Positions 30,537 to 63,003 of a stretch of 64,000 nt of DNA are shown here, in pieces. The translations under genes and the position numbers were made by a program. The notes below the pieces were generated by a model that made no database searches, was not told where the DNA came from, and saw nothing but the letters and a program-made list of their open reading frames with translations. Location: assembly GCA_945883495.1 (NCBI GenBank), contig CAMCXS010000007.1, positions 62,001 through 126,000 on the forward strand, written 5' to 3'. Source of the stretch: Akkermansia muciniphila (GTDB lineage Bacteria > Verrucomicrobiota > Verrucomicrobiia > Verrucomicrobiales > DEV007). The stretch's first letter is position 1; every line of letters starts with the position of its first letter.

Positions 30537-30588
30537 GGGGTTCGTATCGCATGTCTTCGCCTAATTCCTCAGGATTTCGAATTCAAAA

Positions 30589-30882
30589 CGGGGGAATCGT
30601 CCAGACCGCGAGGGAAAGGGCATTCCGGCGTTTCGGCGCCGGCAATTCGACACGGGAGAGATGTTTCCCAAATTTCGGGAAGGGCAATTGGTCGCGGAGA
30701 AGACGACTCCGAAGTTTCGGGAAGGGCAATCGGACGCGGGCAGGAGAGCTCCGCCGTTTCGGGAAGAGCGATCCGACGCAGGAAAGACAACTCCGCCGTT
30801 TCGGGACGAGCGATCCGACGCGGAAAAGACGATTCCCCCGTTTTGGGAGCCCGGACGGACGAAGGAAAGACGATTACGCCGT
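30589..30882. repeat. 42-nt tandem repeat array 1
   Basis: At least six 42-nt units begin at 30631, 30673, 30715, 30757, 30799 and 30841, each starting TTTCGGGA or TTTTGGGA on the plus strand and ending CCGCCG or close to it; a degenerate unit precedes them. There are no spacers. Because 42 is a multiple of three, several frames stay open on both strands, giving 14-residue peptide repeats (FREERSDAGKTTPP on plus; a PETAE-rich repeat on minus), but I see no start or ribosome site that makes these credible genes. The array abuts and slightly overlaps the stop codon of the minus-strand gene at 30874-31560. It fills the 337-nt gap to the GH63-like gene. Confidence 0.9.
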
Positions 30883-31560
30883 CTTCTCGGCGAATTCTCC
30901 CCTTAGCACTTTGGCGGCGTCGGAGCCGGAACGTTTGGAGGGATAGAGATTGGGGAAGAGGCGATCCGCCAGGACGCGTCCCCATTGCTTGCGGGCGTCG
31001 AGGTAATTGGCCTCATACTTCCGGCGCAGAGCGCTTTTGGCGATGTCTTCCTCGGCTTCGGCTCCTTTCTGGGTGCGGATGGCGTCGCGGTGCGCGTTGA
31101 GGGCTTCCCGGACGGTTTGGGCAGCCTCGCGCAACTTGGCGGAGTGAGGCGCAAGGTCATGGCCGGTGCCGAGCAATTCGAGCTTCTTGGCCAAGGCATC
31201 GACGGCGTCCGGCTCATCGGCGCGGGGCAGATCAATCACGGAACTGAAACCGCCACTGGGAAACAGATCGGGAAGGACGGGGGCGGTAGGAGCGGAGCGG
31301 TCGTGCTGCTTCGCGGAATCAAACAGGTTGCGCACCGCGTCGTCCAAATCCCCATCCGCCGCCAGGACAGCGTCGAGCGCTGCCTGGGCATCGAGGAGGC
31401 GTTCCTCGCTCAGCTGCCGCTTTTGGGCGAGATCGCTGATCAAGGGGTCAATGCCCTTGATCAGCTCATCACAGCGGTAGCGGCGTAGCAAGCGCACATG
31501 ACGGCGGGAACCATTGACAATAAGAGCGGCGGAGTCACGCTCCGAAAGCATTCTAGGCAT
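30874..31560 (-). CDS. Hypothetical helical protein, 228 residues
   Basis: I do not recognise this protein. It starts at an ATG (MPRMLSERD) and is charged, rich in Ala, Leu, Lys, Arg and Glu, with predicted long helices around residues 30-75, 125-190 and a coiled-coil-like feel; there is no signal peptide or membrane segment. Its C-terminus (FAEKTA) ends in a TAA that lies inside the last unit of the 42-nt array: the array consensus CGGCGGAATCGTC becomes CGGCGTAATCGTC, so the stop seems to arise from the repeat. Upstream lies the REP-like region. Genuine coding is supported by length and normal composition; function unknown. Confidence 0.65.
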   Translation of the reverse strand: MPRMLSERDSAALIVNGSRRHVRLLRRYRCDELIKGIDPLISDLAQKRQLSEERLLDAQAALDAVLAADGDLDDAVRNLFDSAKQHDRSAPTAPVLPDLFPSGGFSSVIDLPRADEPDAVDALAKKLELLGTGHDLAPHSAKLREAAQTVREALNAHRDAIRTQKGAEAEEDIAKSALRRKYEANYLDARKQWGRVLADRLFPNLYPSKRSGSDAAKVLRGEFAEKTA

Positions 31561-31689
31561 AAGATCGGGGAAGTTCGAGTGGATTGTGTCCGGTCAGGTG
31601 GATCTTGGCGGACACGGTGAGAATGGGTACCCGGAGAAGACAAAGATCAAGGGCGGGGTGTGAGGAAAGCTGGTGGCCTGTGGTGCGGC

Positions 31690-32045
31690 CAATCATCCCG
31701 AGCTGTACCCAAACGCTTTGATTGCCCCCAGGCCCAGCGGGCCGCGACAGGATAGCCCAGGTCGAAGGTCGCCCATGGCGGCCGCAGGCCTGGGACGTCG
31801 ACGAAAGATGATCCCGCCCTGTCAGGGCGGGACAAACATGCGCTTTCATCGCTCGGATCGTCTCACCACGAACCGCAGGGCTTCGCCCTGGACTGTCCTG
31901 TCCCGTCCCTTCAGGCATCGTGCATGGCCTGAAAGGCCAAGACAGGATAGCCCAGGCCGAAGGGAGCCGAAGGCGACCGCAGGCCTGGGTTTCCCGTCCA
32001 TTCCCATCCCGTCCTGACGGGGCGGGATAACCGTCCGATTTCCCC
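31690..32045. repeat. REP-like palindrome units, left flank of the transposase
   Basis: One diverged composite unit (about 31690-31860) and one shorter unit (about 31873-32045) share blocks with the array right of the transposase: GCAGGGCTTCGCCCTG, TGGCCTGAAAGGCCA, GATAGCCCAGG with the matching GCAGGCCTGGG, and the CCCGTCCTGACGGGGCGGG-type palindrome. These are short GC-rich inverted repeats with 3- to 5-nt loops, as in REP elements. The 497 nt between the neighbouring genes hold nothing else that I can support; ORFs here are by-products of the repeats. Confidence 0.8.
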
Positions 32046-32057
32046 AAAACGTCCCGA

Positions 32058-32507
32058 TCAATCCCAAACGTACTGCTCATCGAACGCCACCCGGTGCCGT
32101 TCCAAGAACAAGCGGAACTCATCCTGAAACGTCGTCTTGGCATGATGCTCCTCCTGCCGGGCGATGTAATCGATTACCTGATCCAGATTGGATGCGCTGA
32201 CTGCGAAAGCTCCATACCCGGCCTGCCAGGCGAACGCCGCTACACCCTTGTCCTGCTTGATCCATTTGCTGGACTCCGCCTTGACCTGGCCTACGACGTC
32301 GGCCAACGCCACGGTCCGGTGCAGGTCGAACAAGGCATGGACGTGATCGGCCACGCCGCCGATCTTCAGGGCATGGCATTTCTGGCCATCGAATGCACCC
32401 GACAAGTAGCGCCAAACATCCGCCCGCCATTCCGTCGCGAGCCAGGGATGTCGGTTCTTGGTGCTGAAGATGAGATGGACGTGAACGTTGGACAACGATT
32501 GGGCCAT
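32058..32507 (-). CDS. IS200/REP-associated tyrosine transposase (RAYT-like)
   Basis: A 149-residue Y1 transposase of the IS200/IS605 class; I place the start at the ATG at 32507 (MAQSLSNVHVHLIF) rather than the GTG 12 nt upstream. The HUH metal site is at residues 55-57 (ADHVHAL) and the catalytic tyrosine is Tyr114 in the YxxxQ helix motif (YIARQEEHH). It ends in the family-typical DEQYVWD. Such enzymes cut and join single-stranded DNA at hairpins. It sits inside arrays of short palindromes on both sides, which is the arrangement of RAYTs with their REP substrates. It is intact by eye. The alternative is a plain IS200 copy, but I see no IS200 ends. Confidence 0.9.
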   Translation of the reverse strand: MAQSLSNVHVHLIFSTKNRHPWLATEWRADVWRYLSGAFDGQKCHALKIGGVADHVHALFDLHRTVALADVVGQVKAESSKWIKQDKGVAAFAWQAGYGAFAVSASNLDQVIDYIARQEEHHAKTTFQDEFRLFLERHRVAFDEQYVWD

Positions 32508-32551
32508 GCCGATGGACACCGTAATGAGAATCGAGAGGTTGTCTCGCGCTT

Positions 32552-33478
32552 TCCCCCAGGGCTTCGCCCTGGGCTGATCCTGTCTCGGCCCTTTGGGCCT
32601 GATGAAAGCGCACCGCCGTTTAACGCGCGCAGCGTCCTGGCCTGAAAGGCCAAGACAGGATAGCCCAGGCCGAAGGGAGTCGGCGGCGACCGCAGGCCTG
32701 GGTCACGGGTCGATTTCCTCCCGTCCTGAAAGGGCGGGACAGCCGTGATGACCCGCCGGTTGTCCCGCGCCTTCAGCGCTCCGATCATTTCGGTGATAAA
32801 ACCCAGGGCTCCGCCCTGGGCTGATCCTGTCTCGGCCCTTTGGGCCTGATGAAAGCGCACCGCCGTTTAACGCGCGCAGCGTCCTGGCCTGAAAGGCCAA
32901 GACAAGATAGCCCAGGCCGAAGGGAGCCGAAGGCGACCGCAGGCCTGGGTCACGGGTCCATTCCCTCTCGTCCTGAAAGGGCGGGACAACCGTGATGACC
33001 CTCCGGTTGTCCCGCGCCTTCAGCGCTCCGATCATTTCGGTGATAAAACCCAGGGCTCCGCCCTGGGCTGATCCTATCTCGGCCCTTTGGGCCTGATGAA
33101 AGCGCACCGCCGTTTAACGCGCGCAGCGTCCTGGCCTGAAAGGCCAAGACAAGATAGCCCAGGCCGAAGGGAGTCGGCGGCGACCGCAGGCCTGGGTCAC
33201 GGGGGCCATTCCCTTCCGTCCTGAAAGGGCGGGACAGCCGTGATGACCCGCCGGTTGTCCCGCGCCTTCAGCGCTCTGATCGTCTCACCCACGAACCCCA
33301 GGGCTTCGCCCTGGGCTGTCCTGTCCCGGCCCTTTGGGCCTGATGAAAGCGCACCGCCGTTTAACGCGCGCAGCGTCCTGGCCTGAAAGGCCAAGACAAG
33401 ATGGCCCAGGCCGGAGGCGACCGCAGGCCTGGGGCACACGTCCATTCCCCGCCCGTCCTGAAAGGGCGGGACAAGCGT
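32552..33478. repeat. Composite REP-like array with 247-nt period
   Basis: Four near-identical units; the marker GGGCTG(A)TCCT begins at 32571, 32818, 33065 and 33313, giving periods of 247, 247 and 248 nt. Each unit has ordered palindromes; in the unit starting at 32802 these are CCCAGGGC-TCC-GCCCTGGG (32802-32820), GGCCC-TTT-GGGCC (32834-32846), TGGCCT-GAA-AGGCCA (32885-32899), a long CCCAGGCC...GGCCTGGG stem (32911-32949) enclosing GCC-GAA-GGC, a CCTGAAAGG-centred CCCG...CGGG element, and GCGCCTTCAGCGC. The high identity suggests recent tandem amplification. Reading frames crossing the units give repeated nonsense peptides. Confidence 0.92.
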
Positions 33479-33496
33479 CCGATTTCAGTTGAGCCT

Positions 33497-33802
33497 TCGC
33501 GGAATCGCCCCGGGGACGCGGAAAACACGATTCCGACATTTTGGGAACGTCTTCCGGACGCGGGAAAGGGGTTCCCAAAATTTCGGGAAGTGCCATCGGA
33601 CCCGGAAAAGACGATTCCGCCGTTTCGGGAAGAGCTGCCGGACGTGGGGACGCCGGTTCCACCGTTTCGGGAAGGGCGATCCGGCGCGGGATCGAGGCCT
33701 CCGCCGTTTCGGGAAGAGCCACCGGACGCGGGAAAGGCCGTTCCCCCGTTTCAGGAGCGCGAGCGGACGTGGGGAAGACGATTCCGCCGGTTTCACTCGG
33801 CT
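33497..33802. repeat. 42-nt tandem repeat array 2
   Basis: Units start at 33539, 33581, 33623, 33665, 33707, 33749 and 33791, exactly 42 nt apart, with TTTCGGGAAG as the usual first ten bases; a degenerate unit precedes them near 33497. The array matches array 1 unit by unit, including the same variants at the boundary of the second unit (TTCCCAAA before TTTCGGGAAG) and at the last boundary (CCCCCGTTT instead of CCGCCGTTT). It lies in the same orientation as array 1 and ends at the stop codon of the minus-strand gene at 33803. No credible gene is encoded in it. Confidence 0.9.
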
Positions 33803-34366
33803 TCAATGAGCGCGTGGGATGCGAATCCGCATCATCGGAATCTCGGCTGGGCTCACGACGAGGGAATTTTCCTCAATGAGGGCCACGCGGAATCGTTTGG
33901 CCCCGCTGGGCGCGGAGAAGTGTGAGCCTTCGCGCACCAGGAAAACGTCGCCTTTTTTTCCCCAGGAGAGGGCTGCGTAATACTCGGGCCACTGAATGTA
34001 ATCGCCTTGGTTGAGGACGAAGCTGCGTTTGGTCGCGGAATCGCTCACGGCGACCACGAACGTGTCGAGCACGCGGTGGGGCGGGCGCTTTTCCAGAAGC
34101 TGAACCCGATCCACCGCGAAACGGCCGTGGTGAAACCGTTTGCCCTGCTCGGTTTCGACCACTTCCAGCTCGCCTGGCGCGCGAGTCAACATCGTCACCT
34201 TCCGATTGGCGAGAACCGTGGCTTGAAAGTGATAGTCCCGATGCCAGCGGCCACGGTAAACTAGGCTGTCCAGGGGTTTCGCGGCTGGGGCGGCGGAAAG
34301 GCCGGGTGCGAGCTGGCAGCCGAGGATGGCTAGGCAGAGGAGGAACGGGGAGGCGGTAGCTTTCAT
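33803..34366 (-). CDS. Small exported protein or lipoprotein of unknown function
   Basis: 187 residues from the ATG at 34366; an upstream start at 34432 would add 22 residues before the signal peptide and looks wrong. Residues 1-27 form a signal sequence (MKATASPFLLCLAILGCQ); the ILGC could be a lipobox with Cys17 as lipid anchor, or cleavage may follow GLSA. The mature part is beta-rich with charged strands (YRGRWHRDYHFQATV, KRSFVLNQGDYIQWPEYYAALSWG) and no motif that I recognise. The stop is followed within 12 nt by the second 42-nt array. The TIM-barrel gene lies about 120 nt upstream on the same strand. Confidence 0.7.
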   Translation of the reverse strand: MKATASPFLLCLAILGCQLAPGLSAAPAAKPLDSLVYRGRWHRDYHFQATVLANRKVTMLTRAPGELEVVETEQGKRFHHGRFAVDRVQLLEKRPPHRVLDTFVVAVSDSATKRSFVLNQGDYIQWPEYYAALSWGKKGDVFLVREGSHFSAPSGAKRFRVALIEENSLVVSPAEIPMMRIRIPRAH

Positions 34367-34488
34367 GGCGGGCAAAGCACCGGGCAGGGCTTCGTGGCCA
34401 CTCAGACATGGTCTTTGTCTCTGAGCAAGCAAAGCGGGGTGATTTTCCGGCCCGGTTCGCCGCCAAGGAAAGCTTGCGTAGGGGCGGC

Positions 34489-61108: not shown

Positions 61109-62575
61109 GTGACCGAGCGGTTGACAGAAGATTTCATGGATTTGGCGAAACTCACTTTGGTGGAAATCCGGAACGCGATCCGGAAGGGAAAAGCGACGTC
61201 CGTCGATGCGGTCGAAGCGATCCGCGACGCGGTGGAGAAGCGGGATGAACGGGTTAAGGGGTATGTGGCCCTTGATTTTGAGACGGCGCTGGACCAAGCA
61301 CGCAAGGCGGACCCGAAATTGCCCTTGGGAGGCGTGCCGATCGCGATCAAAGACTTGATCAACGTCCAGGACCAGCCTTGCTCCTGCGGCTCCAAAATGC
61401 TGGCGGGGACCTATCGCTCGCCCTACGATGCCACCGTGATTCGCAAACTTCGCGAAGCCGGGGCCATCCCCTTGGGGCGGACCAACATGGACGAGTTCGC
61501 GATGGGATCCTCCACGGAGAACTCGGGGATTCAACTCACGCGCAATCCCTGGAATTTGGATCGTTCCCCGGGCGGCTCCAGTGGCGGCGCCGCGGCGGTG
61601 ATTGCTGCGGACACGGCGTTTGCATCGCTAGGATCGGACACCGGGGGCTCGATCCGCCAACCGGCCTCGTTTTGTGGAACGGTCGGGTTGAAGCCGACCT
61701 ACGGCCGCGTTTCTCGCTACGGGGTGGTGGCCTTCGCCTCCTCGCTCGATCAGATTGGGCCGATCACCAAGACGGTCGAGGACTCTGCTCTCCTGCTGAG
61801 TGTCATCGCCGGGTTGGACCCCAAAGATTCGACCACCCTGAACGCCCCAGTCCCGGATTATGCGAAGGGGCTCAAGGGGAACGTAAAGGGGCTTCGGGTC
61901 GGGCTGCCGAAGGAGTACTTCATCGACGGCACATCGGCGGGTGTTCGTTCTTCGGTCGATGCCGCCATTCGCAAATTGGAGGAACTCGGGGCCGAGCTTG
62001 TCGAGGTGTCGCTGCCTCACACCGAACCGGCGGTGGCGGTTTATTACATTTTGGCAACGGCCGAGGCGTCGGCCAACTTGGCGCGATTCGACGGAGTGCG
62101 GTACGGACACCGGGCGGAAACGATCCATGATTTGGGCGAGCACTACCGAAAGAGCCGATCCGAAGGATTCGGTGCGGAAGTGAAACGACGGATCATCTTG
62201 GGGACCTACGTTCTCAGTTCCGGTTATCACGATCAGTATTACACCCGAGCCCAGCAAGTGCGGACCCTGATCCGGCGGGACTTTGAAGACGTCTTCGCTA
62301 AGGTCGATGTGATCGCCTCTCCGGCCTCGCCGACGACCGCATTTCAAATCGGCGAACTGACGAACGATCCGCTGCACATGTACTTGGCGGACGTGTTCAC
62401 GATCGCGGCGAACTTAGGGGGGATCTGCGGGATCAGCGTTCCCTGCGGATTTTCCGAGGGGATGCCGGTGGGCCTGCAGCTTCTCGGCCCGTCCTTGGGG
62501 GAACAAGTGGTGTTGCAGGTCGCGCACGCCTACGAGCAAGCCACGGAATGGCACAAGCAGCGGCCGGCGTGGTGA
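61109..62575 (+). CDS. gatA: Asp-tRNA(Asn)/Glu-tRNA(Gln) amidotransferase subunit A
   Basis: 488 residues from the GTG at 61109; an ATG at 61136 (MDLAKLTLVE) is a plausible alternative and matches the usual N-terminus. It is the glutaminase/amidase subunit. The Ser-cisSer-Lys triad is visible: Lys in VPIAIKDLIN, cis-Ser in SPGGSSGGAAA and the nucleophile in SDTGGSIRQPAS. GLKPTYGRVSRYGVVAFASS and the C-terminal GISVPCGFSEGMPVGLQLLG are diagnostic for GatA. Directly follows gatC, so both depend on the same promoter. There is no obvious terminator after the stop. Confidence 0.97.
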   Translation: MTERLTEDFMDLAKLTLVEIRNAIRKGKATSVDAVEAIRDAVEKRDERVKGYVALDFETALDQARKADPKLPLGGVPIAIKDLINVQDQPCSCGSKMLAGTYRSPYDATVIRKLREAGAIPLGRTNMDEFAMGSSTENSGIQLTRNPWNLDRSPGGSSGGAAAVIAADTAFASLGSDTGGSIRQPASFCGTVGLKPTYGRVSRYGVVAFASSLDQIGPITKTVEDSALLLSVIAGLDPKDSTTLNAPVPDYAKGLKGNVKGLRVGLPKEYFIDGTSAGVRSSVDAAIRKLEELGAELVEVSLPHTEPAVAVYYILATAEASANLARFDGVRYGHRAETIHDLGEHYRKSRSEGFGAEVKRRIILGTYVLSSGYHDQYYTRAQQVRTLIRRDFEDVFAKVDVIASPASPTTAFQIGELTNDPLHMYLADVFTIAANLGGICGISVPCGFSEGMPVGLQLLGPSLGEQVVLQVAHAYEQATEWHKQRPAW

Positions 62576-63003
62576 CGAAATCGCCGTCTTCGCACAAGGC
62601 CAAACCCTTCCCATTGCTTGGCCAACGCCGGTGCTGGTGCCCGCCGCCGTGGTCAGGTTGGCGGTGATTTGATCCTTGGGAAGGGCGCGGGCATCTCCGT
62701 GTGACCTCGCTTCGCTTGGGGGCATTTGGCAGGGAAGCGATATCGTGTCCGGAGAGCGAAGGCCGGAATGCCAACAGGAGGAGGCGGTTTGCCGAGTTGG
62801 AGAGGCAGTTTGCCAAGTTGGAGAGGCGATCTGTTGAGCCGGAGAAACCGGAACGATCTCTCCTTTCGTCCAATTTCAGGACGGGGCTCTGCGGTCGGGG
62901 GCCCCAGGGCTGCGGTCGCTAGAAGCTCCCTGTGCCTTCCTATCCCGGGCAATGGGCGAGCCCCGCTTGGAATCAGCGGACCGGTCTGTTCTCCGGAGGG
63001 TAG
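62576..63003. other. Intergenic region without supported gene
   Basis: 428 nt between gatA and the convergent gene at the right edge. It contains a 21-nt repeat (separate entry) and short ORFs in low-complexity sequence on both strands, none with a credible start or conserved composition. I see no clear terminator, promoter or RNA gene here. Confidence 0.6.
62781..62843. repeat. Three tandem 21-nt repeats
   Basis: Units start at 62781, 62802 and 62823 with GAGGCGG, GAGGCAG and GAGGCGA, the first two sharing most of TTTGCCGAGTTGGA. Like the 42-nt arrays, the unit is a multiple of 21 and the block lies downstream of a minus-strand gene, but the sequence is different. Confidence 0.6.

Follow-up and report, generated by a model that had tools for sequence, protein, structure and literature searches.

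In a 64,000-nucleotide window (C7:62001-126000) of a 206-contig, 6.46-Mb verrucomicrobial metagenome-type assembly, a minus-strand gene encoding a protein of 228 aa, here called gene228, runs directly into a tandem array of 42-nt units, and a second array of the same kind lies within the same 3 kb. The window means this entire stretch, and positions without a locus prefix refer to it. The features that make up the two arrays and the gene are as follows.

About 30587-30882, minus strand: array 1, a family A element with seven ~42-nt units in gene direction, the distal unit inverted
30584-30615: distal inverted arm of array 1, pairing with 30814-30845 (81% complementary)
30814-30845: gene-proximal inverted arm of array 1, partner of 30584-30615
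30869-30882, minus strand: junction of gene228 and array 1, with the last two codons and TAA within a repeat unit, ACGGCGTAATCGTC against unit ACGGCGGAATCGTC
30874-30876: stop of the minus-strand gene228 (TTA), inside GACGATTACGCCGT, which is unit GACGATTCCGCCGT with one change
30874-31560, minus strand: gene228, 228 aa, a predicted helical-hairpin protein, array-linked in all five copies in two genomes
33501-33794, minus strand: array 2, an orphan copy of family A (gene228 not alongside) with seven 42-nt positions

Both arrays were called by Tandem Repeats Finder (TRF; array 1 at 30673-30848 with period 42, array 2 at 33514-33794 with period 42/84), and ungapped comparison of 30593-30886 with 33501-33794 gave the same 294-nt block twice, at 73% identity and in equal orientation. 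The two arrays reported in the initial annotation are therefore confirmed, each with about 294 nt and seven units; the starts given there have to be moved, since the true starts lie earlier, at about 30587 and 33501. Unit variants agree position by position and in register, so that array 2 is a copy of a whole array, as had been claimed. The claim that the TAA of gene228 falls inside a repeat unit of the first array also holds, the junction reading ACGGCG TAA TCGTC when compared with the unit. Inversion of the distal unit provides array 1 with imperfect terminal inverted arms, which the predicted fold pairs into a closing stem of 19 bp. A genome-wide search with array 1 matched, apart from itself, array 2 and two sites on contig C11 and nothing else, which excludes chance as the source of the window arrays. 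No real match to the array DNA was found in 57 relatives, and the lone 23-nt match (G042) had no array.

Four full copies of gene228 are present in this genome (the window copy on C7, and copies on C11, C157 and C18 with 87%, 71% and 42% identity, respectively), together with one 3' remnant, and a homologue with 57% identity occurs in a Chthoniobacteraceae genome (L043); comparisons of the gene rest on these two genomes. An array of ~290 nt with a 42-nt period stands directly after the stop codon in all five full copies, so the 3'-end placement noted initially is real for this gene. Between gene228 copies, the arrays have little or no sequence relation, yet keep their pitch. The window unit has no sequence relation to the units of the C18 array (TTCGGACCCGCACTCATCGATGAACCCGCGCCGCGAAAGTTG) or of the Chthoniobacteraceae array (CACTCCCCCACGGGGGAGCCGCCCCCGCTGCACGGAAAAGAC), and these too are built on 42 nt; the most degenerate arrays have their best lags at 42, 83 and 125 nt, the last giving 125/3 = 41.7 nt. 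The gene is under purifying selection, with a dN/dS of 0.12 between the C7 and C11 copies. Structure prediction folds the protein into a long helical hairpin (residues 37-89 and 137-193), at a mean predicted local distance difference test score (pLDDT) of 79. Searches of Pfam, NCBIfam, PHROG, PADLOC and the PDB gave no significant relative, and Foldseek returned nothing at E <= 0.001, with generic coiled coils only. The gene was absent from the other genomes of the same family (75 searched), and across overlapping sets of 388 phylum, 384 class and 213 Chthoniobacteraceae-order genomes, which with the same-family set amount to several hundred distinct genomes, it was found only in this genome and the Chthoniobacteraceae one. 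None was found in the plasmids, phages and viral contigs searched. The Chthoniobacteraceae array (L043:4679-4960) has no dispersed copies, in contrast to the arrays of this genome.

A tandem-array survey covered 2.46 Mb, or 38% of the genome, with genes called by a home-made simple codon model (84% coding). It yielded 46 merged noncoding arrays with units of 41-43 nt and many unrelated sequences. In a period scan, 34, 36 and 26 noncoding arrays were counted at 41.67, 42 and 42.33 nt and 4-7 at 41-41.33 nt, against 0-3 at each of the control periods of 30-40.5 and 43.7-55.5 nt; pitches between 32 and 40 nt or between 44 and 48 nt were nearly absent. Of the 42 noncoding TRF arrays with a period of 15-135 nt, 33 deviated by no more than 1 nt from a multiple of 21 (p 1.5e-20), and when independent unit families with no common 10-mer were counted, 22 were near multiples of 21 and 5 were not. 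A spacing of 41.7 nt is 4 x 10.4 and fits the turns of B-DNA. The window arrays belong to a genome-wide set in which the sequences differ while the spacing of 42 nt, four DNA turns, stays constant, and which by extrapolation comprises about 100 arrays in the whole genome. The same-genus comparison rests on one genome, in which 295 kb held no such noncoding array; about five would be expected at equal density.

Among 1664 proteins, an array was located within ~320 nt upstream of 22 and within ~150 nt downstream of 25. Homologous genes with a common array state form three families, namely gene228, a DUF6261-like family and an unnamed family of two members. With p values that treat related genes as independent, a 3' array accompanies gene228 in 4 of 4 cases in this genome (hypergeometric p 4e-8), and an upstream array accompanies 7 of 7 DUF6261-like genes (p 2e-14) and both members of the third family (p 2e-4). 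DUF6261 (PF19775) is a family of unknown function; six of its seven array-linked members here were found directly and the seventh (L158) through its 125/83/42 periodicity. They are 20-33% identical, except for the L093/L150 pair, and their array sequences differ. The seven genes, whose 42-nt arrays lie at most ~250 nt upstream, and the third family are listed below.

L093:17579-18346: DUF6261-like gene
L150:1527-2294: DUF6261-like gene
L155:1585-2385: DUF6261-like gene
L062:16964-17926: DUF6261-like gene
L088:6124-7065: DUF6261-like gene
L048:10454-11242: DUF6261-like gene
L158:10164-11111: DUF6261-like gene
L157:16762-17727: third array-linked family (members 302-321 aa, 38% identical)
L122:188-1096: third array-linked family, second member

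The C-terminal part of the third family is charged and probably coiled, and its L157 member has no Pfam match. All three partner families look helical, and profile comparison with hhalign detected no homology among them; the AlphaFold model of DUF6261 (pLDDT 52) was too poor to use. In the open-licence literature we found no account of 42-nt arrays in Verrucomicrobia, of DUF6261 with repeats, or of an association of DUF6261 with such arrays. A TTGACA-like box lies between array and DUF6261-like gene in L093 and L150. A further, weakly similar array-linked pair occurs at L040:1338-2246 and L096:673-1593 (25% identity), and a 41-nt array at L082:14773-15084 lies 275 nt upstream of a gene for a ParA-like ATPase (AAA_31).

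Some arrays are elements of near-fixed length that occur in several copies: family A (four copies), family A' (four) and family B (five genome-wide, one partial, and fragments). Exactly 252 nt separate the terminal CTCACGCGTGAG boxes in the family B copies where both are recognisable, and the spacers are homogenised inside each copy, a sign of exchange between units. Gene228 is the sole gene that the loci of these families have in common and stands beside only one or two copies per family, the remaining copies being orphans. Copies are often clustered: C7 and C11 have pairs within 3 kb and 6.5 kb, respectively, and C18 has four copies within 14 kb. Self-complementarity of the whole element exceeds a period-keeping control in most A' and B elements, in D, E and F, in the Chthoniobacteraceae array and in part of family A. 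It is commoner than palindromes of single units; only 7 of 33 units beat shuffles, so a palindrome in every unit was rejected and a hairpin is not universal. A family A array at L036:9923-10293 is fused to a remnant of 24-36 residues of the gene228 3' end and reads as a decayed gene-array copy. Very regular 41-nt arrays (88-94% matches) were seen at L160:15537-15926, L140:17774-18179 and L063:1-269; the first two were tested and lack strong self-complementarity, and all three are possibly a different subclass or younger arrays.

Taken together, the arrays and their partner genes have the look of a protein-DNA pairing system not previously described, here in a verrucomicrobial bacterium. From the fixed pitch, the private sequence and the location in cis to a helical protein we derive a tentative preference, only slightly under an even chance, for arrays that act as helically phased DNA sites, to which the neighbouring protein would bind and of which orphan copies would have been dispersed. 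Each array would be a multi-site DNA element of ~290 nt with about seven sites placed four B-DNA turns (41-42 bp) apart, and each site would be recognised by the adjacent helical protein, gene228 for the window family and the DUF6261-like and one further family elsewhere. The site sequence would be private to each protein-array pair and would drift through homogenisation within the array, and the pitch would be kept because neighbouring protein molecules must bind one helix face and touch each other. The likely outcome would be a cis-acting nucleoprotein filament or a partition-like or autoregulatory complex, and orphans such as array 2 would be copies dispersed, mostly nearby, without the gene. 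Directly observed are the period, the private sequences, the gene linkage, a fixed length in families A and B, many self-complementary elements, gene228 under purifying selection and copies that cluster locally; array binding by the neighbouring protein, the filament and any biological role are what we infer. We rate somewhat under an even chance the broader proposal that several unrelated helical protein families each own a cis-linked, self-complementary array of private sequence and universal four-turn pitch, with the ~100 extrapolated arrays of one genome sharing this pitch as a conserved 'code', which would constitute a new class of protein-DNA system. Several observations weigh against the DNA-site explanation. 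Gene228 has no recognisable DNA-binding domain in family and structure searches, many arrays have no partner gene alongside, the linkage p values count relatives as independent, and the sense-strand folds of the arrays (z -2.6 to -6.6) could also mean a role in RNA. In addition, a distant DUF6261-like open reading frame in a record of a human-gut phage collection has no clear array, so the array link may not be universal.

The strongest rival, unlikely in our estimate and not exclusive of the DNA-site explanation, holds that the arrays are non-autonomous mobile elements of ~300 bp with inverted ends, similar to miniature inverted-repeat transposable elements (MITEs) or repetitive extragenic palindromes (REPs). 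The 42-nt structure would then be recognised by a transposase or recombinase, and gene228 would either provide mobility or be carried as a passenger by one full-length copy, a role like that of the REP-associated tyrosine transposase (RAYT) for REPs. Terminal inverted repeats and dispersed copies are both present, as in MITEs or insertion-sequence derivatives, and the fixed length of families A, A' and B, the local clustering of copies and the apparent movement of arrays separately from the gene all agree with mobility. Against it, neither gene228 nor DUF6261 bears a catalytic signature, both resembling simple helical proteins, the flanks of family B inspected by eye revealed no target-site duplication, the Chthoniobacteraceae array is not dispersed, and the pitch is identical across many unrelated families. 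It appears quite improbable that the arrays are neutral minisatellites with no function, generated through unequal exchange or slippage by a mechanism that favours whole helical turns. Homogenisation within family B copies, the fast turnover implied by the same-genus genome (295 kb with no noncoding array of >= 2.5 copies) and an overall intergenic position no different from chance speak for such an origin, which would leave unexplained both the linkage to specific gene families with a conserved side (7/7, 5/5, 2/2) and the constant length of seven units in families A and B.

The initial annotation had suggested a 3'-UTR-targeted repeat, a regulatory RNA or remnants of C-terminal coding repeats. 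A general targeting of 3' untranslated regions (UTRs) was rejected, on a chance-like distribution of the kind that the initial annotation had named as refuting: the nearest gene end was a 3' end for 17 of 28 placeable arrays against 15.4 +/- 2.9 from random intergenic placement (convergent placement 10 of 28, null 6.2 +/- 2.3), and the DUF6261-like family has its arrays on the 5' side; within the surveyed part of the genome, systematic 3'-end placement is confined to gene228. We consider it improbable that the arrays act as RNA, that is, as multi-hairpins in a 3' UTR or 5' leader that would control stability or expression of the adjacent gene and might be bound by its product in autoregulation or in a manner similar to type III toxin-antitoxin systems. 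The gene228 array starts at the stop codon, and the sense-strand folds of all five gene-linked arrays beat dinucleotide shuffles (z -4.1, -6.6, -6.5, -2.6 and -4.0), with a lesser score for the antisense fold of array 1 (z -2.2). On the other side, arrays can precede or follow genes and are also present between divergent ones, arm swaps between unit hairpins within arrays carry no covariation signal, RNAalifold covariation terms are near zero or unfavourable, and no array reaches a gathering-score match in Rfam. The pitch agrees with B-DNA turns (10.4-10.5) and not with A-form turns (11), and fits DNA at least as well as an RNA element. To a coding origin we give hardly any credence: 42 nt equal 14 codons and array 1 can be read through in several frames, but most arrays have stops in several frames, no codon-position bias was found, and the position of the gene stop at the start of the array is conserved. 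Unit length varies by 1 nt, and pitches that are not multiples of three (41, 43 and 41.67 nt), together with the gaps at 32-40 and 44-48 nt, argue against coding.

Plasmid partition centromeres and iterons are helically phased arrays of sites, private in sequence, beside the gene for a small binding protein. The arrays described here resemble them in phasing and in adjoining a small-protein gene, with binding putative, and differ in being chromosomal and numerous (>40 in 2.46 Mb), in their longer pitch of four turns, in their several unrelated protein families, and in the general lack of a ParA or Rep gene, one ParA-like gene lying by one array. In type III toxin-antitoxin systems (ToxIN), a small gene adjoins a short array of tandem ~36-nt repeats; here there is no match to the ToxN endoribonuclease family, the array follows the gene (gene228) and the pitch is that of DNA turns. 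With MITEs and small bacterial repeats (Correia, BOX, RUP) the arrays share a dispersed occurrence, a size of ~100-300 bp and imperfect inverted ends, unlike them having an internal seven-fold 42-nt periodicity and a coupling to non-transposase genes. A clustered regularly interspaced short palindromic repeat (CRISPR) array was rejected, as the whole 42-nt unit is repeated with no unique spacers and no cas gene was present among the neighbouring genes scanned. A further parallel in organisation is with REPs, bacterial interspersed mosaic elements (BIMEs) and RAYTs, which likewise combine dispersed intergenic palindromic repeats in several families, a cognate gene beside some copies and a private sequence per gene. 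REPs are single palindromes of 20-40 nt or dimers, unlike arrays with a 42-nt pitch over ~300 nt. REP palindromes carry a GTAG or CGTC tag at one end, 5' of the palindrome (PMC3733652), whereas in our arrays neither tag is so placed, CGTC lying 3' of it. Membership in a RAYT-REP system was rejected: no partner gene is a Y1/HUH transposase, gene228 having no significant match in Pfam, NCBIfam or PHROG, and the RAYT of the window has separate, unrelated REPs.

The remaining features near the two arrays are as follows.

32058-32519, minus strand: RAYT-type Y1 (IS200-like) transposase (PF01797, E 1e-22)
31730-33478, no strand assigned: REP/BIME-like repeat cluster of the RAYT, with a 247-nt repeat at 32555-33478
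33803-34372, minus strand: gene of ~187 aa, its stop 8 nt from array 2, unrelated to the array system

The arrays bracket a transposase block, as initially described. The REP-like repeats of the RAYT have no sequence relation to the arrays, and the transposase is an ordinary RAYT with its own REP repeats, outside the array system. The ~187-aa gene neither matches Pfam nor has a homologue among the genes linked to arrays. Acido-Lenti-1 (RF01687), a small RNA family of Rfam, matches the REP-like unit of the RAYT cluster (window 33297-33341; L036 7821-7865) and may in part be a REP element. A 21-nt array, GAGGCAGTTTGCCAAGTTGGA, lies at 62758-62845, flanked on one side by an amidase gene (61109-62575) and on the other by a convergent gene, and is related to a 20-copy array at L064:9851-10282 and to an array at L065:5568-5680.

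Repeat families are usually recognised by a common sequence. Here, what is conserved is the spacing, exactly two or four turns of DNA, together with the neighbouring protein family, while the sequence differs per locus. Partition, autoregulation, silencing and mobility are candidate roles. If real, the arrays and their partners would form a genome-wide set of protein-DNA modules that escapes sequence-based repeat finding. They would also offer an initial clue to what DUF6261 and the unnamed 228-aa family do, and a natural set of matched protein-site pairs in which the divergence of DNA recognition could be studied.

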